DNA from: Clostridia bacterium | GTDB taxonomy: Bacteria; Bacillota; Clostridia; Oscillospirales; Acutalibacteraceae | Length of the DNA: 39,963 nt | Reading direction: 5' to 3' | Assembly (NCBI GenBank): GCA_017935325.1 | Contig: JAGBHV010000057.1 | Coordinates: 1-39,963 of the forward strand | Shown: one piece after another, positions 16,589 through 26,665 of the stretch | Position numbering within the stretch: the first letter of the stretch is position 1 | How the letters are laid out: every line of letters begins with the position of its first letter | Translations under genes and position numbers: made by a program | Notes under the pieces: generated by a model | The model's database searches: none | The model's input: the letters and a program-made list of their open reading frames with translations, nothing else | Told to the model about the DNA's origin: nothing

Positions 16589-17443
16589 TTAAATCTTGAA
16601 TCCGTCAATTGAACTTTCGTTTTCTTTGGGCGAAAGCTGAGGCCTGAATTTTGTTTTTTCAGCCTGCAGATAGTCTTTTCTCAGAATTTCAAGAGCGTCA
16701 ACATCAAGCGATGAGCAAATGTTTTCAACGCTTTTTGCACTGATTTCGGGAGAAATTACCGCAGAAAGTTTAACAATTTCCTGCCTGAGGAAACTTTTAT
16801 ATTTTTCTGCAATTTCAATATACCTGGCGTTGTCTGCTTCTGCAGTTTCTTCGTTGAAATTCTTTACCGTTCCTGCTTTTTTCTGTGCAGGAACAGCAAC
16901 AAAAGACCATTCGTATGCATCAGTCGGATTTCTGAGAATGTGGTAACACGTTTTACCTTTTGTGTGTTCACATCTTTCTTTTTTTACATTTATTCCGCAG
17001 ATACTGCACACGATTTCGCTGACAGCACAGTTGATGCTTACTTCTTTTTTGATGCCTGCACAGATTTCGTCAATCAAAGGCATGTTCTTGTCGTTCTTAA
17101 GCATGTATGCTTTGGCTTTAAGTCGTGCATAAGCTTCGCCTGCGGAATTTTTTTCTGTTCCGCTTACTTCAATTTCAGCAGAATAAATTCTTGCAACCTG
17201 ATTTTCAGCTTTCATTTCGTGGTTTAAAATGCCTGTTTTTCCGATGTAAAGCTCTGATAAAGTTTTTAAAGAAGCCATATCAAAGCACTCGAAATCTCTG
17301 TCTATTTCATTATCGCACAATACCACGTTGAAAGCGAAAATGTCTTCCGCTTTGAGTTCTGTCAAAGAATATTTGTTGATAAGTTCAAGTTCTTCTTCCG
17401 TTACAGAACAAAGGGAAATTGCGTTATCAAAGTTTTTCTTCAT
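16589..17443 (-). CDS. Putative prohead protease with Cys/His cluster
   Basis: By position between portal and capsid, this 284-residue protein should be the prohead maturation protease. The pattern FAFNVVLCDNEIDRD, then GILNHEM with H75 and IKKEVSINC with S136, fits the His/Ser arrangement of HK97-type (U35-like) proteases. EWSFVAVPAQ near 178-187 is a conserved strand of that family. Residues C146, C149, C158, H160, C166 and H168 form a compact Cys/His cluster that could bind zinc, which is not typical of gp4. The C-terminal 90 residues are helical and may scaffold. Its start lies 17 bp inside the portal gene with AGGAGG upstream. Confidence 0.68.
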   Translation of the reverse strand: MKKNFDNAISLCSVTEEELELINKYSLTELKAEDIFAFNVVLCDNEIDRDFECFDMASLKTLSELYIGKTGILNHEMKAENQVARIYSAEIEVSGTEKNSAGEAYARLKAKAYMLKNDKNMPLIDEICAGIKKEVSINCAVSEIVCSICGINVKKERCEHTKGKTCYHILRNPTDAYEWSFVAVPAQKKAGTVKNFNEETAEADNARYIEIAEKYKSFLRQEIVKLSAVISPEISAKSVENICSSLDVDALEILRKDYLQAEKTKFRPQLSPKENESSIDGFKI

Positions 17444-18584
17444 TCAATACATCCTCCTTTTCTAGTTTTTGCGCCTGTGCAGAATAAAGCTGTGCTTTTG
17501 CAGTTTCAACAGCATCCTGCAGGCAGATGTCATCCCATTCAACACGAGCCTCTGCCGTGTATCCGTTCATGCGCAGATATGCGTTGCCGATTTTCAAAAG
17601 AACGGGTTCGAGGATCTTTCTGTAATGCTCAAGTTCGCTTGTAAGTATATCTGCCTGTTGCGCCGACATTCTTTCTGTTGAAGACCATGTAAGACCAAGC
17701 ATAAACGGCGGAAGCCCCGTTTTTGAAATGATTTGTTCAAGCATCTGCCTTACGGGAACTTCACTGTCAAGAATCTGGTTATCAGCGCCTATTGCTTTAA
17801 TCTGAACATCGCCTACTGCCACAAAGTCATGCACTGAGCCTGATGAATTCATAGCTTTGCTCCATTCAGATGCAATCTGCAAGGCTCTGTCTTTTGCATA
17901 TGCTTTGTCAAGAGCATCGTTCTGCGGCTTGTAAGTTACGGCATACCGTACATTGCCCACACGTTCGAAATTAGTTCCGATAGTGTTATAAATTTTCATC
18001 AGTATTGAACTTACAAACGGCATCCCTTTAAGAAGAGAGTTTCCTTCAAGGTGACCCGGTGTAGGGTTGAGAACAGACATCATCAATAATTCAGGGTGAG
18101 ACGGTTTTGTTTCGCCTACACCGCACAGGCAGATGTCAACATCAAACCCGTTTTCATTTCTTTTGAGCTGAATGTCGTCAAGGCACGTGTTGTAAAGCGC
18201 ACCGAATGAGCCTGAAACAGTGGGGATAATTTCACCGATAGCCGTGCCGCAGGTGAGAAGCTCATCAAAGTATGTGGAGATGAAAGCTTCAATTCCTCTT
18301 GTGTTACCGCCGACAGGCACTTTTTTAAAAAAGTTCTGCATTTCTCTTTCTGCGATTTTGTCATTACATGTAAGTGTAAAAGCACATACAAGGCGCACTA
18401 ATTTGTCGATGGCGGCATCAATTATCGGCACAGAGTTTCTTAAATCACGGTAAAGCCTTATCTGAGCTGATGACATCGGTGAAAAGTTTTCAAAGTTGTT
18501 TAAGAAACCTCGGTTTGCAGATGTCTGTACAGCCGCCACAGGGGATGAGGAGCTTTTTTTTGCAAAAAAATCTTTAATGCCCAA
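17427..18584 (-). CDS. Phage portal protein
   Basis: The portal is the dodecameric ring through which DNA enters the head. The 385-residue protein shows portal features: SAQIRLYRDLRNSVPIIDAA near residues 38-57, TPGHLEGNSLLKG, and the C-terminal ISKTGLPPFMLGLTWS with an AQQADILTSELEHYRK helix. The start is a TTG at 18584 with AAGGAGG 6 bp upstream; no ATG fits better. It lies 21 bp after TerL, and its 3' end overlaps the protease gene by 17 bp. It is shorter than many portals of 450-500 residues, mainly at the C-terminus. Confidence 0.85.
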   Translation of the reverse strand: MGIKDFFAKKSSSSPVAAVQTSANRGFLNNFENFSPMSSAQIRLYRDLRNSVPIIDAAIDKLVRLVCAFTLTCNDKIAEREMQNFFKKVPVGGNTRGIEAFISTYFDELLTCGTAIGEIIPTVSGSFGALYNTCLDDIQLKRNENGFDVDICLCGVGETKPSHPELLMMSVLNPTPGHLEGNSLLKGMPFVSSILMKIYNTIGTNFERVGNVRYAVTYKPQNDALDKAYAKDRALQIASEWSKAMNSSGSVHDFVAVGDVQIKAIGADNQILDSEVPVRQMLEQIISKTGLPPFMLGLTWSSTERMSAQQADILTSELEHYRKILEPVLLKIGNAYLRMNGYTAEARVEWDDICLQDAVETAKAQLYSAQAQKLEKEDVLNEEKL

Positions 18585-18605
18585 TATTTTCCTCCTTATA
18601 TATCG

Positions 18606-19865
18606 CTATCTTTCGGTTGAGAGAACAAAAAATTCAGTCTGTGTATTTTCAAGAACGGTAGAAACAAAATAACGTATATCGTCCATAGCGTGGTCGTTTT
18701 CTTTTTTGACGGAATCTTTTGCGGAGTTTGAATCCCATCTGTAAATTGAAAACTCGCGTATGGTATCCTTACATTCAGGTGAAAACAGAATTTTTTTAGC
18801 TTGGAGACAGTCAGATACAAGACGGATTCCGTCAAGAACCTGGTTCTTTGCAGGTATTGCCCGGAAATGTCCGTGACGGTGAATGCATTGAATGAAACTT
18901 GCCGCTGATGGATCTACTATAACACCTTCAATTTCTCTGCCTGAGGCAAGTTCTTCCAGAGATTTGTAGTGTTCTTCGTCGGTTTTCTGAAAACCTTCAC
19001 GGCGGGAATCATGATAGTATTCACGCAAACGGTACCATTTTCCGTCTTTTCTGCCCCACAGTCCGAAGGATGCAGGGTTAACTGTTCCGTAGTCGCAGGA
19101 AATATAGTATTTTTCCAAAGGCTCTTCAGGCGGTAAAACAATGTGGTCCTTTTCGTTGAATTGCGGATACACAACGCCTTCTGCTGCTACCCATTTACCT
19201 TCCACAAATCTTTCGTAGAATGCACCGGAATAAAGAGAATGGTATCTTTCAATAACTTTCTTCGACAGAGAGGGATTGTCCTGCATTAAAAAATGAAGAT
19301 GAAGCGAGTTTTTCGAATGAGCTTTTTCAATCCATTCTTTTTTAAACCAATGCTGCGGATTTTCGGGGTTGCAGTTAAACCAGAATTTTGCGCCTTCCAA
19401 TGAGCAACGTGCAAGAGCCTGCTCAACGAAAGAACGGGGCATTAAGGCTACTTCATCAAAAAGGACTCCGCCCAGCGTCATACCCTGAATGAGTGAAGCT
19501 GATGCTTCGTCTTTGCCACCGAAAAGGAAAAATCTGTTTGTTCTTTTGCCGTATGTAATTGTAATTTCGTTACGTGAAAGCTTTTCTTCGCAGGAAAAAC
19601 CGAGTTGCCTTAAAATCGGAATAATCGGCGTTACAATATTTCTCCTGATAGAGGCTACTGTTTTTCCGCATATTGCAAAGCTTGTTTCGTTGAATGCAAA
19701 AAATGACCATGCAACAAATGAAATTGACATGCAAAGCGTTTTGCCGCTTCTTACTGCTCCGTCGCAGATGAGTGCGTCGTATGAACTGTAAGAGGAGTCA
19801 GGGTGCCACCATGAAAGAACGGTAAGCTGTTTTTGAGAGAAAGGAGAAAATTTCAGCTTACTCAT
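18606..19865 (-). CDS. terL: Terminase large subunit
   Basis: TerL is the packaging motor and nuclease. The 419-residue protein has the ATPase Walker A GAVRSGKT at 36-43 and Walker B VLFDEVALM with D138/E139. The RNase H-like nuclease carries acidic residues D259 in SCDYGTVNP, D319 in VIVDPSA and D396/D397 in HAMDDIRYF. Both active sites look intact, which argues against long decay. Its ATG overlaps the terS stop by 8 bp. Confidence 0.94.
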   Translation of the reverse strand: MSKLKFSPFSQKQLTVLSWWHPDSSYSSYDALICDGAVRSGKTLCMSISFVAWSFFAFNETSFAICGKTVASIRRNIVTPIIPILRQLGFSCEEKLSRNEITITYGKRTNRFFLFGGKDEASASLIQGMTLGGVLFDEVALMPRSFVEQALARCSLEGAKFWFNCNPENPQHWFKKEWIEKAHSKNSLHLHFLMQDNPSLSKKVIERYHSLYSGAFYERFVEGKWVAAEGVVYPQFNEKDHIVLPPEEPLEKYYISCDYGTVNPASFGLWGRKDGKWYRLREYYHDSRREGFQKTDEEHYKSLEELASGREIEGVIVDPSAASFIQCIHRHGHFRAIPAKNQVLDGIRLVSDCLQAKKILFSPECKDTIREFSIYRWDSNSAKDSVKKENDHAMDDIRYFVSTVLENTQTEFFVLSTER

Positions 19866-20337
19866 TGCGTTTCCCTTCCAACGCTTTTGCAGATTTTCTT
19901 ATTGCTTCATAAAACGGCATTGATGAATCGTCGTCGTTGCTTTCACAAATCTGTGAAAGTTTTTCAAGTGCCTTAAGACGGTCGAAAAATTTAATTTCAA
20001 GTCCGCCGCCTTTAGGCTTTTTGATTTCCGCAATGTTGAAAAAATCCATTTTCTCTGTGTCGAAATTTTCCTGCGTGTCACATAAAATCAATTTCAGGCA
20101 GTCGGCAACTGAACCGAAAGCAAGACGTTTTAAGCCGCAGATAATTTCTTCATTTCCTGTTTTGAGTGAACGTATACGCGATATTTCATCACGTATTTCT
20201 TTTCTTGCCATCAGCTTCATCCCCGCCCTTTCGGGGCTTGCATATCCGCTTTTTGACGCTGCTTCACGAGCGTTTGCATACAATGCGAAGCTGTGACAGA
20301 AAAGCTGTTCCTTTGTTGTAAGTTTTTTCGTTTTCAT
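19858..20337 (-). CDS. terS: Terminase small subunit
   Basis: TerS recognises the phage DNA to be packaged and regulates TerL. The 159-residue protein starts KTKKLTTKEQLFCHSFALY, then NAREAASKSGYASPERAGMKL, the helix-turn-helix pattern of Terminase_2-type small subunits. The C-terminal part is helical and charged. The frame is open to 20385, but ATG at 20337 after GGAAAGGAAG is the natural start. It is the first gene of the block. No consensus promoter is evident on this strand between it and the mgtE leader, so how the block is transcribed is unclear. Confidence 0.85.
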   Translation of the reverse strand: MKTKKLTTKEQLFCHSFALYANAREAASKSGYASPERAGMKLMARKEIRDEISRIRSLKTGNEEIICGLKRLAFGSVADCLKLILCDTQENFDTEKMDFFNIAEIKKPKGGGLEIKFFDRLKALEKLSQICESNDDDSSMPFYEAIRKSAKALEGKRNE

Positions 20338-20413
20338 TTCTTCTTCCTTTCCTGATTTTTTGTTTTGAAAAATTTGTCCTCCCATATATAGAGGGTACAG
20401 CCCGTTTTTTCTA

Positions 20414-20436: not shown

Positions 20437-20450
20437 AAAAATTGAAAATG

Positions 20451-20467
20451 TTCACAAAAAGTTCACA
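20451..20467 (+). promoter_or_regulatory. Direct repeat TTCACA-N5-TTCACA, possible response-regulator site
   Basis: TTCACA occurs at 20451-20456 and 20462-20467, 11 bp apart, that is one helical turn, just upstream of the leader promoter. This spacing and sequence fit the TT(A/T/C)ACA direct repeats bound by PhoP/OmpR-type regulators in Bacillus. No regulator gene is in the window. Confidence 0.45.
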
Positions 20468-20469
20468 TT

Positions 20470-20498
20470 TATACATTCTTATAGGCGTAAAATATAAT
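20470..20498 (+). promoter_or_regulatory. Promoter of the mgtE leader
   Basis: TATACA (20470-20475, four of six consensus bases) and a perfect TATAAT (20493-20498) are 17 bp apart. Transcription would start near 20505, only a few bases before the leader ribosome site, which gives a leader of about 140 nt ahead of mgtE. Confidence 0.65.
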
Positions 20499-20513
20499 CA
20501 TAAATGAAAAAAG

Positions 20514-20640
20514 GAGGTATTCCTCATGGAACCTGATGGGTGTTGTTTTAGGTTAAAATTCAATAGCAAGAGGAATACTTCTTACACTTTATTAAATGCA
20601 TAAAATGTATTTGATAAATATCCTCTTGCGGAAAAGAGGA
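20514..20640 (+). promoter_or_regulatory. Alternative-hairpin attenuator controlling mgtE translation
   Basis: Four segments can pair in exclusive ways. A (20514-20525, GAGGTATTCCTC, holding the leader ribosome site) pairs with B (20570-20581) over 12 bp with one G-U. The strand GCAAGAGGA (20566-20574), overlapping B, pairs perfectly over 9 bp with C (20621-20629). C (TCCTCTT, 20621-20627) also pairs perfectly with D (AAGAGGA, 20634-20640), the mgtE ribosome site. If B is covered by a ribosome, or paired with A, C can hide the mgtE site; if B is free it pairs with C and exposes it. Confidence 0.6.
20526..20603 (+). CDS. Putative MgtL-like leader peptide upstream of mgtE
   Basis: A 25-codon ORF starts with ATG at 20526, 8 bp after a perfect AGGAGG (20512-20517), and ends TAA at 20601-20603. 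Its product begins MEPDGCCFRLKF and ends TLLNA. Enterobacterial MgtL, the leader of the Mg2+ transporter gene mgtA, also begins MEPD; its acidic/proline start destabilises ribosomes at low magnesium. Downstream of this ORF is mgtE, another magnesium transporter gene. The ribosome site and codons 15-19 take part in the alternative hairpins listed next. A coding role is inferred from the ribosome site and this context; it is too short to judge by composition. Confidence 0.6.
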   Translation: MEPDGCCFRLKFNSKRNTSYTLLNA

Positions 20641-20644
20641 GCTT

Positions 20645-21997
20645 ATGGAAGAAAAAGATTTTGAAGAACTGCATGAATTGCTTGAAAATAATAAATTCAG
20701 CGTTCTTCATTCAAAACTCAAAGAAATGAACCCGGTTGATATAGCGGAATTTTTAGATGAAATTGACGATAAATTTCTTGTGGTTGTTTTCCGTATTCTG
20801 CCAAAAGATATTTCCGCGGATGTTTTCTCTTATATGGATTCCGACAGTCAGGAAAATATCGTCCGTTCAATTACTGACAGCGAGCTGCACAGACTTGTTG
20901 ATGATATGTATATTGACGATACTGTGGATTTCCTCGAAGACGTTCCTGCAAATGTTGTAACAAGGGTTTTAAAGGCAACTGATTCCAAAACACGTGATAC
21001 AATCAACCGTTTCCTTAATTATTCTGAGGATACGGCAGGAAGCATAATGACCACGGAAATGGTTCAGCTGCATACGTATCTGAATGCTGCGCAGGCAATA
21101 GAACAAATCAGAAAAACAGGCGTTGATAAAGAAACAATTTATACATGCTACTGTATTGATGAAAAACGTCACCTTGTAGGTATTCTTGATCTGAAAGACC
21201 TGCTTTTGTGCGAGCCGGAAACTCTGATAACTGAAATTATGGATGATAACAAGCAGATAATTTCAGTCGTGACTTCAGATGACCAGGAAACGGTTGCAGA
21301 TTTAGCAAGAAAATACGACCTTTTGAGTGTGCCTGTAACAGACAGTGAAAACCGTCTTGTAGGTATTATCACAATCGACGATATCGTTGATATCATCGAA
21401 GAAGAAAATACAGAAGACTTTGAGAAGATGGCACTTCTTAATCCTTCTGATGATACCTATCTGAAAACGGGCGTTTTCAAAATGTCAAAAAACAGAATTA
21501 TATGGCTTGTGGTTCTTATGGTATCAGCCACACTCACAGGTCAGATTATCAGTCAGAAAGAAGCTTTGCTTGCAGATTTTGCGTTTCTTATTTCAGCAAT
21601 GCCCATGCTTATGGGTACAGGCGGTAATGCAGGCAGTCAGGTTTCAACACTTGTTATCCGCGGTCTGGCTCTGGGTGAAATAAAAATCCGCGATTACTTT
21701 AAAGTAGTTTTCAAAGAAATCAGAGTTGCTTTCTGTTGTGCAACAGTCCTTGCTGTGCTTAATTTCTTAAGACTTCTCATCGTCGGTGGCGGAGATATTC
21801 CGCAGTATCTTATTGTAAGTGCTGCAATGTTTGCAACGGTAGTAATTGCAAACGTAATCGGTTGTACGCTTCCTATTCTTGCGCGTATAGTGAAGTTGGA
21901 CCCTGCACTTATGGCAGGACCGCTTTTGTCAACAATTGTTGATGCAGCAACACTTTCAATTTATTTTGCAATAGCACAATTTGTATTAATGAGATAA
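20645..21997 (+). CDS. mgtE: Magnesium transporter MgtE
   Basis: MgtE is a dimeric Mg2+ channel gated by intracellular magnesium. The 450-residue protein has the cytoplasmic superhelical N domain (about 1-130), two CBS domains (about 130-255, with VGILDLKDLL and VGIITIDDIVDIIEEE), a plug helix and five membrane segments from about 285. The pore motif PMLMGTGGNAGSQ, near residue 320, is complete. The ATG follows GAGGAG very closely, in a segment that can be sequestered by the upstream RNA fold. A terminator begins right after the stop. Confidence 0.95.
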   Translation: MEEKDFEELHELLENNKFSVLHSKLKEMNPVDIAEFLDEIDDKFLVVVFRILPKDISADVFSYMDSDSQENIVRSITDSELHRLVDDMYIDDTVDFLEDVPANVVTRVLKATDSKTRDTINRFLNYSEDTAGSIMTTEMVQLHTYLNAAQAIEQIRKTGVDKETIYTCYCIDEKRHLVGILDLKDLLLCEPETLITEIMDDNKQIISVVTSDDQETVADLARKYDLLSVPVTDSENRLVGIITIDDIVDIIEEENTEDFEKMALLNPSDDTYLKTGVFKMSKNRIIWLVVLMVSATLTGQIISQKEALLADFAFLISAMPMLMGTGGNAGSQVSTLVIRGLALGEIKIRDYFKVVFKEIRVAFCCATVLAVLNFLRLLIVGGGDIPQYLIVSAAMFATVVIANVIGCTLPILARIVKLDPALMAGPLLSTIVDAATLSIYFAIAQFVLMR

Positions 21998-23273: not shown

Positions 23274-23508
23274 AATATGATTAAAAACTGTGACGGAGAG
23301 AGTAGCCTTTTATTGAAAATGCAAGCGAGTCGGGGATGGTGTAAGCCCGATGATGAGTAAGAAAAGGTGAAAATCACTCCTGAGTTGCAAGCTGAAATCA
23401 GAGTAAGCGTAGCCGGTATCCGCCGTTATCGGATAACATATGTCAGTATGTAAATAGGTGGTAAAACGAAAATATGCTTTCGTCCTGTTTCAGGGCGGAA
23501 GCTTTTTT
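23274..23508 (+). promoter_or_regulatory. T-box riboswitch (tRNA-Ile sensing) with terminator
   Basis: The leader has T-box features: a stem I region with GAGAGAGTAGCC, a specifier region GTGAAAATCACTCC in which ATC (23373-23375) is a candidate Ile codon, and the T-box bulge TAGGTGGTAAAACG at 23455-23468. A terminator (23476-23487 with 23491-23502, then a T run) competes with an antiterminator ACGAAA/TTTCGT (23466-23471 with 23478-23483). Uncharged tRNA-Ile would favour readthrough into ileS. The T-box lacks the usual ACCGCG, so it is divergent. Confidence 0.85.
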
Positions 23509-23527: not shown

Positions 23528-26500
23528 ATGTATAAGAAAGTTCCTGCAAACCTCGGCTTCGTTGAGCGTGAAAAAGAAGTTGAGAAATTTTGGAAAGAAA
23601 ACAAAATCTTTGAAAAATCATCAGCACGTCAGGGTGAACCTTACGTTTTCTACGATGGTCCTCCCACTGCTAACGGCAGACCTCACATCGGTCACGTTTT
23701 AACACGTGTTATTAAAGATATGATTCCCCGTTACCGCACAATGAAAGGCTATCAGGTGCCGAGAAAAGCGGGTTGGGATACTCACGGCCTTCCCGTTGAG
23801 CTTGAAGTTGAAAAACTTTTAGGCCTTGATGGAAAAGAGCAGATTGAAGAATACGGCATTGCTCCTTTCATTGATAAATGTAAGGAAAGCGTGTGGAAAT
23901 ATAAGGGAATGTGGGAAGATTTCTCATCAACTGTCGGCTTCTGGGCTGATATGAACGACCCTTATGTAACATATCATAACGAATTTATCGAGTCTGAATG
24001 GTGGGCACTCAAACAGATTTTTGACAAAGGTCTTCTTTACAAAGGCTTCAAAATTGTTCCCTATTGCCCCCGTTGCGGAACTCCTCTTTCATCTCACGAA
24101 GTTGCACAGGGCTACAAGGATGTTAAAGAACGCTCAGCCATTGCAAGATTTAAAATCAAAGGCGAAGACGCTTTCTTCCTTGCATGGACAACAACTCCCT
24201 GGACTCTGCCTTCAAACCTTGCACTTTGCGTAAACCCCGTAGAAAATTATGTTAAAGTCAAAACTGCAGACGGATACACTTATATCCTTGCAGAAGCACT
24301 CTGCGAAAAAATTCTCGGCGGTGAAAAAGCAACTGCACCCTATGAAGTTCTTGAAACTTATGTTGGTAAAGACCTTGAATATAAAGAATATGAACCTCTT
24401 TTTGACTGCTGTGGCGAAATTATCGAGAAACAGCACAAAAAGGCTTATTTTGTAACATGCGACAGTTATGTTACACTTACAGACGGTACAGGTATCGTTC
24501 ATATTGCTCCTGCATTCGGTGAAGACGACGCAAACGTAGGCAGAAAATATGACCTTCCCTTTGTTCAGCTCGTTGACAGTAAGGGTAATATGACAGAGGA
24601 AACTCCCTTTGCAGGCATGTTCTGTAAAGATGCAGACAAGGAAGTGCTTATCGACCTTGATAAGAGAGGACTTCTCTTTGATGCACCTAAATTTGAACAC
24701 AGCTATCCTCACTGCTGGAGATGTGACACTCCTCTCATCTATTATGCAAGAGAATCATGGTTCATCAGAATGACAGAAGTCCGCGATGATCTTATTAAAA
24801 ATAACAATACAATTAACTGGATTCCCGAAAGCATCGGTAAAGGTAGATTCGGCGACTGGCTTGAAAATGTTCAGGACTGGGGCATCAGCCGTAACCGTTA
24901 TTGGGGTACTCCTCTTAATATCTGGGAATGCGATTGCGGTCACAGACACGCTATCGGCAGCATTGAAGAACTTAAATCAATGTCAGATAATTGTCCCGAT
25001 GATGTAGAACTTCACAGACCTTACATCGATGAAGTCAACGTTAAATGTCCCGTTTGCGGTAAGAATATGACACGTGTTCCCGAAGTTATCGACTGTTGGT
25101 TCGACTCAGGTGCAATGCCCTTTGCACAGCACCACTATCCCTTCGAAAACAAAGATTTATTCGAAGTACAGTTCCCTGCAGACTTTATCTCCGAGGCAGT
25201 TGATCAGACAAGAGGTTGGTTCTATTCACTTCTTGCAATTTCAACACTTATCTTCAACAAGGCACCCTTCAAGAATGTTATTGTTCTCGGTCATGTTCAG
25301 GATGAAAACGGTCAGAAGATGTCTAAATCAAAGGGTAACGCAGTAGACCCATTTGACGCTCTTAATGCACATGGTGCAGACGCTATCCGTTGGTATTTCT
25401 ACACCAACTCTGCTCCCTGGCTTCCCAACCGTTTCCACGCAAAGGCAGTAACAGAAGGTCAGCGTAAATTTATGGGTACATTGTGGAACACATATGCTTT
25501 CTATGTGCTTTATGCAGATATCGATTCATTCGACCCCACAAAGTATTCACTTGAAGTTGATAAACTTTCAGTTATGGATAAATGGCTTCTCTCACGTCTT
25601 AACTCAATGGTGAAAGAAGTTGACGATTGCCTTGCAAATTACAAAATTCCTGAAGCAGCAAAAGCACTTCAGAGCTTTGTGGATGAAATGAGTAACTGGT
25701 ATGTCCGTCGCGGACGTGAACGTTACTGGGCACAGGAAATGACTCAGGATAAGATTAACGCTTATATGACTCTTTACACAGCCCTTGTAACAACTGCAAA
25801 AACTGCAGCACCTATGGTTCCCTTTATTTCAGAAGAAATTTATCAGAATCTTGTGCGTTCAGTTGATGAAAATGCAGAAGAAAGTATCCACCTTTGCTCA
25901 TTCCCTGAAATTCAGGAAGACCTTATCGATAAAGAGCTTGAAGAAAATATGGACGAGGTTCTCAAGATTGTTACTCTCGGACGTGCAACAAGAAACGGTT
26001 CAAATATCAAAAACCGTCAGCCTCTTGGTAAAATGTTCGTAAAAGGCGAAAGAGAACTTAACGATTTCTACAAGACGATTATCGAAGATGAACTTAACAT
26101 CAAAGAAGTTTCATTCATCGACGATGTTGACGGTATGCTTTCTTACAATTTCAAACCGCAGATGAAAACTCTCGGCCCGAAATACGGCAAACGTCTTAAC
26201 GATATCAGAACAAAACTTTCTGAAATCGACGGCAGTGCTGCAAAGAAAGAACTTGACACTACAGGTGTTCTTAAACTTGACCTCGGCGATATGGTTATTG
26301 ATTTGGAAGAATCAGATCTTCTTATTGAAGCAACACAGAAAACAGGCTTCTTCTCACTTGCAGAAGGCGGTGTAACAGTTGCTATTGACACAACTCTCAC
26401 ACCTGAACTCATTGAAGAAGGCTTTGTACGTGAAATGGTATCAAAAATCCAGACAATGAGAAAAGATGCTGATTTCGATGTGCCTGACCATATTACAGTT

Positions 26501-26665
26501 TACATCGACGGTAACGAAAAACTTGCAGATATCTTCACAAAGAATAAAGAAGAAATTATGACAGACGTTCTTGCAGATGAGTTTGTAATCGGTTCAACAA
26601 ACGGCCACGTTGCAGAATGGGATATCAACGGCGAAAAAGTAACATTCGGCGTTAAGAAAATGTAA
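23528..26665 (+). CDS. ileS: Isoleucyl-tRNA synthetase, type 2 (IleS2-like)
   Basis: It charges tRNA-Ile with isoleucine. The 1045-residue enzyme has the class I motifs PHIGH at 52-56 and KMSKS at 597-601 followed by KGN, a CP1 editing domain with GWDTHGLPVE before it, and WTTTPWTLPSN at about 220-230. It also has zinc-type Cys pairs (CWRCDTP and CPVCGKNM) and an anticodon-binding C-terminus. The KMSKSKGN form, the length and the C-terminal extension suit type 2 enzymes, which in other bacteria are often less sensitive to mupirocin; that is known of the family and untested here. Expression is set by the T-box. The ATG follows GAAAGGAAG. Confidence 0.96.
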   Translation: MYKKVPANLGFVEREKEVEKFWKENKIFEKSSARQGEPYVFYDGPPTANGRPHIGHVLTRVIKDMIPRYRTMKGYQVPRKAGWDTHGLPVELEVEKLLGLDGKEQIEEYGIAPFIDKCKESVWKYKGMWEDFSSTVGFWADMNDPYVTYHNEFIESEWWALKQIFDKGLLYKGFKIVPYCPRCGTPLSSHEVAQGYKDVKERSAIARFKIKGEDAFFLAWTTTPWTLPSNLALCVNPVENYVKVKTADGYTYILAEALCEKILGGEKATAPYEVLETYVGKDLEYKEYEPLFDCCGEIIEKQHKKAYFVTCDSYVTLTDGTGIVHIAPAFGEDDANVGRKYDLPFVQLVDSKGNMTEETPFAGMFCKDADKEVLIDLDKRGLLFDAPKFEHSYPHCWRCDTPLIYYARESWFIRMTEVRDDLIKNNNTINWIPESIGKGRFGDWLENVQDWGISRNRYWGTPLNIWECDCGHRHAIGSIEELKSMSDNCPDDVELHRPYIDEVNVKCPVCGKNMTRVPEVIDCWFDSGAMPFAQHHYPFENKDLFEVQFPADFISEAVDQTRGWFYSLLAISTLIFNKAPFKNVIVLGHVQDENGQKMSKSKGNAVDPFDALNAHGADAIRWYFYTNSAPWLPNRFHAKAVTEGQRKFMGTLWNTYAFYVLYADIDSFDPTKYSLEVDKLSVMDKWLLSRLNSMVKEVDDCLANYKIPEAAKALQSFVDEMSNWYVRRGRERYWAQEMTQDKINAYMTLYTALVTTAKTAAPMVPFISEEIYQNLVRSVDENAEESIHLCSFPEIQEDLIDKELEENMDEVLKIVTLGRATRNGSNIKNRQPLGKMFVKGERELNDFYKTIIEDELNIKEVSFIDDVDGMLSYNFKPQMKTLGPKYGKRLNDIRTKLSEIDGSAAKKELDTTGVLKLDLGDMVIDLEESDLLIEATQKTGFFSLAEGGVTVAIDTTLTPELIEEGFVREMVSKIQTMRKDADFDVPDHITVYIDGNEKLADIFTKNKEEIMTDVLADEFVIGSTNGHVAEWDINGEKVTFGVKKM

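Follow-up and report, generated by a model that had tools for sequence, protein, structure and literature searches.

The closest described relatives of the element that we report here are short leader open reading frames (ORFs) in front of Mg2+ transporter genes of enterobacteria. In Salmonella, mgtQ is an 8-codon ORF between mgtC and mgtB, with a strong AGGAGG and the acidic residues Asp2 and Glu5; the stem-loops 1:2 and 3:4 exclude the alternative 2:3, which frees the mgtB Shine-Dalgarno (SD) sequence, and control is translational. The same ORF, which precedes a P-type ATPase gene, also occurs in other enterobacteria, and there is an mgtQ-like ORF in Brucella, all according to the pertinent sections of PMC8092293. 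In E. coli, the MgtL leader is reported to lose ribosomes at EPDP when Mg2+ is low, in the part of PMC11282234 that deals with it. For corL, the leader ORF of corA in E. coli and Salmonella, the relevant passages of PMC11552253 describe translation that is inversely related to expression, dependence on Rho, and fewer acidic or proline residues than in mgtL. Here we present the case of a leader ORF before the Mg2+ transporter gene mgtE in a 39,963-nucleotide (nt) stretch of a Clostridia bacterium (contig JAGBHV010000057.1, hereafter the window). This leader resembles Salmonella mgtQ most, and E. coli MgtL next. By analogy, the locus would work like both and be a member of neither, as target, phylum and length differ. 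The elements of the window that take part are as follows.

20512-20517, + strand: leader SD AGGAGG, read from the sequence; SD-like sites also precede the leaders of relatives.
20514-20525, + strand: segment A, GAGGTATTCCTC, which covers the leader SD and pairs with B.
20526 (ATG) to 20601-20603 (TAA), + strand: leader ORF of 25 codons, MEPDGCCFRLKFNSKRNTSYTLLNA; the start is acidic in all seven genomes of our genus sample.
20566-20581, + strand: segment B, within codons 14-19 of the leader, predicted to pair with A or with C.
20588-20618, + strand: hairpin X, 14 base pairs (bp), between B and C, which it brings side by side; from folding against shuffles.
20621-20629, + strand: segment C, TCCTCTTGC, the anti-SD, predicted to pair with D (off) or with B (on).
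20634-20640, + strand: segment D, the mgtE SD AAGAGGA, from the sequence and the folds.
20645-21997, + strand: mgtE, the gene under the proposed control, a Mg2+ transporter of 450 amino acids (TIGR00400, 455.7 bits; PF01769, PF03448 and CBS).

As in mgtQ, acidic residues come early in the leader (residues 2 and 4 in the window), the leader SD is AGGAGG, segments A, B, C and D take the places of segments 1, 2, 3 and 4, and the pairing that corresponds to 3:4, here C-D, is predicted to hide the SD of a Mg2+ transporter gene. Unlike mgtQ as those sections describe it, the window leader has 25 codons and not 8, it stands directly before mgtE and not between cistrons before mgtB, it belongs to a genome of the class Clostridia, segment B lies inside the ORF, and hairpin X bridges B and C. 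The parallel to MgtL that the first-pass annotation of this locus had drawn holds for the start: the first four residues, MEPD, are identical to those of E. coli K-12 MgtL read from the genome. The two also share a short ORF before a Mg2+ transporter gene and, in our proposal, the sign of the response, poor leader translation turning the gene on. The parallel fails beyond residue 4, where the peptides diverge (GCC follows MEPD in the window, PTPLP in MgtL), and at the target, which is mgtE (TIGR00400) and not the P-type ATPase gene mgtA. A Rho-dependent terminator acts on mgtA there, whereas sequestration of the mgtE SD is predicted here. The output probably differs from MgtL's, and the nearest known mechanism is the translational one of mgtQ, as the cited part of PMC8092293 gives it, not the Rho-dependent one of MgtL. 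A terminator scan finds no intrinsic terminator on the + strand, and in the predicted folds the mgtE SD can be sequestered.

The 25-codon ORF, its AGGAGG, and the pairings A-B, B-C and C-D are all found in the sequence where the first-pass annotation had placed them. A (20514-20525) and the stretch 20570-20581 of B (GAGGAATACTTC) form 12 pairs, one of them G-U; the stretch 20566-20574 of B (GCAAGAGGA) and C (20621-20629) form a perfect duplex of 9 bp; and C (20621-20627) and D (20634-20640) form 7 bp. Hairpin X is an element additional to these pairings and does not appear in that annotation. The fold of positions 20495-20665 has -45.6 kcal/mol for a shuffle mean of -28.8 (z of -4.7), and none of 200 shuffles is as good. 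The B-C duplex is equalled by one in 200 dinucleotide shuffles of the leader and by none of 100 plain shuffles. For hairpin X, whose loop region contains the leader stop codon, the stretch from B to C has a z of -5.6, with 0/200 shuffles as stable. Together, these predicted stem-loops, A-B and C-D excluding B-C, with C-D hiding the mgtE SD, fit the mgtQ-type arrangement.

We propose that the locus is probably a translational attenuator, in which the acidic leader start gauges ribosome passage at the prevailing Mg2+ and thereby sets mgtE translation. Comparing sequences, we find a conserved ORF, an excess of synonymous change in its first codons, competing RNA folds and an association with Mg2+ transporters; from these we infer leader translation, the drop-off event, Mg2+ as the signal, co-transcriptional timing and the direction of on and off. 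The acidic start, which contains proline and glycine, would measure how well ribosomes pass the first codons. With sufficient Mg2+, ribosomes would reach the leader stop, cover B and open hairpin X, and C would pair over the mgtE SD (off). Under Mg2+ shortage, ribosomes would fall off or be retained at the acidic start, by an intrinsic ribosome destabilization of the kind described for MgtL and mgtQ. B and X would then be free, and B-X-C would form upon transcription of C, before D, leaving the mgtE SD exposed (on). In the window species, a leader that is not initiated would fold into A-B, also off. The low-Mg2+ step joins the logic of mgtQ, with A-D standing for segments 1-4, to the drop-off of MgtL: low Mg2+ would stop ribosomes early, and mgtE would be translated.

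Our genus sample has seven genomes, all of them with mgtE: the window (WIN), L003, L004, L005, L006, L007 and L060. Of the first-pass reading, the acidic-start leader ORF is borne out in all seven. The leader starts are MEPDGCC, MEPEGCC, MEPDGCY, MEPDGCC, EPEGCY (after a GTG start) and twice MDADGNGRS (the second, L334, has an upstream region identical to that of L060, where the leader was set by hand). In the members other than the window, the start codon is thus followed by EPE, EPD or DAD. The leaders are 15-25 codons long, and their bodies diverge. Segment B is situated 33-48 nt after the first leader base in all seven members, and hairpin X is present in all seven, with z between -2.8 and -8.7 and at most 2/200 shuffles as stable. 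C-D can be drawn in 7/7 members, and so can the alternative B-C; the segments for this comparison were picked by eye, and an automatic search gave overlapping B segments in the seven. B-C stands out clearly from dinucleotide shuffles in four of the seven, being equalled by 1, 2, 8 and 6 of 200 in WIN, L003, L004 and L006. In plain shuffles it is equalled by 5/100 for L007 and 8/100 for L060. The on fold (B-X-C) and the off fold (X with C-D) are within 2 kcal/mol of each other in five of the seven, the difference of on minus off being +1.9 in WIN, -0.3 in L003, -1.3 in L006, -0.5 in L007 and +0.2 in L060. The unconstrained minimum fold is the off fold in five members and the on fold in L006 and L007. 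With a block on the region of the leader stop, all seven have a closed mgtE SD, which is a change only for L006 and L007.

Leaders of this kind recur well outside the genus. We use two rules. Rule D2 describes an SD-led ORF of 10-55 codons in which residue 2 is acidic and at least four of residues 2-6 are in SGPTDEAN. The strict rule asks for an acidic residue in residues 2-4, at least four of residues 2-6 in SGPTDEAN, and Lys or Arg in residues 5-18. The nearest set comprises 80 mgtE loci, 76 of them with an assigned leader (four by hand: L036, L051, L060 and L081); L026, L033 and L075 have too little upstream sequence and L054 has no leader. From the class, 103 places are over the cut-off and 101 are used, the partial G115:C14 and G120:C145 being left out. 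In the family, 38 places besides the window are over the cut-off, and the 29 of them that make up the family sample were placed by tblastn; the phylum sample consists of the 30 best-scoring mgtE loci, of which L378 is a class member. These sets overlap in part (G013 and L013, or L322 and L035, for example). Rule D2 finds a leader before 50/101 class mgtE genes and 40/76 of the nearest set, against 3/241 of the other genes in the same loci, none of the 153 other genes whose distance to the preceding same-strand gene is 150 nt or more, and 1-3/101 in each of ten shuffles. The strict rule finds 50/101 in the class and 63/76 in the nearest set, against 3/241 other genes (1/153 at the same gap) and 2-9/101 shuffles. 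Family loci have leaders in 19/29 (D2) and 17/29 (strict), and the best-scoring phylum loci in 14/30 by each rule, where two of the matches (L377 and L386) look like chance. Leaders of the VDPLPRW type in the phylum set are caught by the loose rule only. Among the nearest-set leaders we find starts such as LDVSDGSRW, MDTIDSSRS, LSSDSSHGRLC, MDEGGRCLTTEGVPRSC and MDADPYPAE. One nearest-set locus labelled Treponema (L081) has the leader-like ORF LGSCKSGDTDSDPYGS; this is either DNA of Clostridia that was mis-binned or a case of a leader beyond Bacillota.

Selection acts differently along the leader. For 35 independent nearest-set pairs, chosen by MgtE identity, 22 of the 53 single-base codon differences in codons 2-8 are synonymous when 10.8 are expected, and the same bases read in the other two frames give 18/54 (15.0 expected) and 12/41 (11.2 expected). 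Synonymous differences are 17/46 (10.3 expected) in codons 9-14 and 20/63 (15.6 expected) in codons 15-24, and amino-acid identity is 67, 43 and 30% over the three parts. We rejected a version of the test with pairs picked on leader similarity, because that choice biases the result. Constraint on the peptide thus appears to hold for the start of the leader and hardly for the tail, where B lies. This pattern fits a ribosome-destabilizing start followed by an RNA-pairing tail; the opposite one, a loose start and a constrained tail, would be expected of an arrest peptide that acts close to its end.

Among other transporter genes, corA has a leader by D2 or the strict rule at 18 of the 86 places with enough upstream sequence (87 sampled), one match (L231) being probably chance. 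Like corL, these are leader ORFs before a Mg2+ transporter gene; unlike corL as the cited passages present it, most of them start with MDxDP or similar. A narrower corA leader type, MDxDP (MDTDPYPN, MDSDPGG, VDADPR), is seen for example at L239, L242, L250, L252 and L262, and is close to the EPDP of MgtL. By D2 or the strict rule, no leader is found before 20 other P-type ATPase genes, nor before 21 Nramp genes (22 loci taken, one too short). Nramp is not a pure non-Mg2+ control, because an Nramp relative is reported to transport Mg2+ in the portion of PMC4072509 that treats it.

To follow the RNA output we use 130 non-redundant leaders, one of which (G010, LPVEGND) is probably spurious. B-C is in the best 5% of plain shuffles in 30/85 leaders, when about 4 are expected, and in 32/84, when 8 are expected, a gene's own leader falls within the top tenth of a ranking with foreign leaders of similar composition. 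In this wider set the B-C alternative is better supported than SD sequestration. Between leader and gene, 29 of the 130 have a terminator-like hairpin, compared with 0-5 in plain shuffles, and some lineages probably use termination as the output instead.

Several results weigh against the attenuator reading. Both rules were fixed after viewing the leaders of the nearest set and the class, the leaders are related and counts across them are not independent, and about half of the class mgtE genes have no leader by either rule. Before mgtA, D2 or the strict rule finds a leader in 1/7 loci; dropping the demand for Lys or Arg gives 3/7 (two genera) and 1/19 for other P-type ATPases, and MSDESSSGMEPDG is seen in an additional mgtA genus, represented by two genomes. 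The SD of the gene is locally sequestered in 85 of the 115 leaders with a recognisable SD and in 62-76 of shuffles, which is only slightly above chance. The pairings of the first-pass annotation fare unequally within the genus: C-D carries over to all seven members, B-C can be drawn in all but in L005, L007 and L060 is equalled by 74, 81 and 30 of 200 dinucleotide shuffles, and the A-B stem is present in WIN, L003 and L004 and absent from the other four, such that we reject it as a general shared feature. The on fold is worse than the off fold by 4.3 kcal/mol in L004 and by 5.6 in L005. Finally, the switch that the annotation described keeps its leader ORF and its competing folds, but blocking the early leader codons in thermodynamic folds produces no switch in any of the seven; the SD stays closed in five and open in L006 and L007, the same as unblocked. 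With a minimum fold that is off and an early-codon block without effect, five of the species would depend on co-transcriptional timing to reach the on state.

Codon use in the leaders bears on another explanation, in which the RNA switch is the same and the leader is a sensor of stalling or slow codons: rare CGA (Arg) and AGT (Ser) would hold the ribosome early, what is sensed would be decoding capacity or charged tRNA, and Mg2+ would be involved indirectly or not at all. CGA is a codon that is decoded slowly. For codons 2-16 of 77 leaders (the nearest set and the window), with the expectation taken from each locus's own genes, CGA is used for 64 of 111 arginines (6.9 expected) and AGT for 80 of 184 serines (13.1 expected); CCT and GAC show a milder excess. 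CGA occurs in 60 of the 77 leaders, codons 9 and 15 being its most frequent positions. Each of the related leaders enters these counts on its own, so the codon excess does not represent that many independent events. The window leader itself has AGG at both of its arginine codons and no CGA, class leaders of the DPLP/GPLP type are mostly without CGA, and the association that we find is with Mg2+ transporters; slow codons could also simply reinforce drop-off. We regard this explanation as unlikely.

It is still less probable that the RNA itself senses Mg2+, by an aptamer or by Mg2+-dependent folding, with the ORF passive or auxiliary. The strength of the structure (z of -4.7 in the window) and the recurrence of hairpin X in all seven genus members would suit such a sensor, and known ones exist: the M-box (RF00380) is an RNA aptamer before mgtE and corA genes, which we find upstream of 16/101 class mgtE genes, and the mgtE motif of the Breaker laboratory, in the portion of PMC11109978 that concerns it, is a structured RNA before mgtE, reported only in Thioalkalivibrio, and a riboswitch candidate, not a leader ORF. 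At the window locus, Rfam scans have no M-box match, as the first-pass annotation had said, nor does the window's own genome (about 81% complete), and we reject the M-box or another known RNA family there. At the leader, Rfam has no match in the window or in the 39 of the 80 nearest loci scanned, the sole match, at L065, being rRNA. Hairpin X varies widely in sequence and length between species, and the synonymous excess in codons 2-8 lies in the reading frame, and hardly in the other two. M-box and leader can also stand in series. Among 23 genes associated with an M-box (16 mgtE, and 7 of 57 corA), 15 have an acidic leader; in the stacked mgtE loci, 44-153 nt separate the end of the M-box from the leader start, and the leader lies between M-box and gene. 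The leader is found in 0/5 cases when the mgtE match is at most 143 nt after the M-box, and in 10/11 when it is at least 159 nt after it. Upstream ORFs 3' of an M-box have been described before pe20 in Mycobacterium, with no acidic-start idea in the relevant passages of PMC12810186. As for a short ORF present by chance in an otherwise ordinary structured 5' untranslated region, with MEPD a coincidence, SD-like short ORFs are indeed common: a loose leader rule, which we rejected as evidence, is met by 22/241 other genes, 13-23/101 shuffles and 6/21 Nramp genes. Given a leader in all seven sampled genomes of the genus and an enrichment above controls by two stricter rules, we find chance very hard to credit.

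The window leader is a short SD-led ORF directly before mgtE, and the genes upstream are divergent. Two further features lie 5' of the leader.

20450-20456 and 20461-20467, + strand: direct repeat GTTCACA, possible operator or promoter part, from the genus alignment.
20470-20498, + strand: promoter-like TATACA-17-TATAAT, from a pattern scan, with a predicted transcript start just 5' of the leader SD.

The copies of the repeat are 11 bases apart and both are recognisable in all seven genus members, the second with a first-base change in L003 and L005; a regulator of mgtE may use the repeat as its operator. The promoter-like pattern taken alone is at chance level (one found, 1.6 expected in shuffles), and a TAAAAT-like stretch is kept at its position in the genus alignment. 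Phage-like genes occupy 16589-20385 on the minus strand, directly 5' of the putative mgtE promoter: a small terminase (PF03592), a large terminase (PF03237) and two proteins without a Pfam match. They may be a prophage, or a prophage remnant, that ends there. Downstream, a T-box leader (RF00230, 98.7 bits) at 23281-23490 precedes a 1045-codon ORF (23528-26665) that by eye resembles isoleucyl-tRNA synthetase.

Reading of Mg2+ through ribosome stability on acidic leaders is described for enterobacteria, in the cited parts of the literature for MgtL and mgtQ, and less clearly for corL. Our searches of the literature, over titles and the starts of abstracts and with most subscription papers outside their scope, found no report of acidic leaders of this type in Bacillota. 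Our comparison indicates that a similar device is common in a phylum far from theirs, where it serves other families of transporters and has different outputs; ribosome destabilization would thereby become a candidate general Mg2+ signal. Tentatively, nascent-peptide gauges of Mg2+ with starts rich in acidic residues, Pro, Gly and Ser may be found across Bacillota before mgtE and some corA and mgtA genes, often in series with an M-box, with anti-SD or terminator output, and in many lineages with CGA and AGT as a second part of the sensor, such that difficulty of decoding and peptide-induced drop-off would together report ribosomal Mg2+. Two questions become testable: whether sensing is done by the acidic start, by rare CGA and AGT codons or by both, and why M-box and leader stand in series before some genes.

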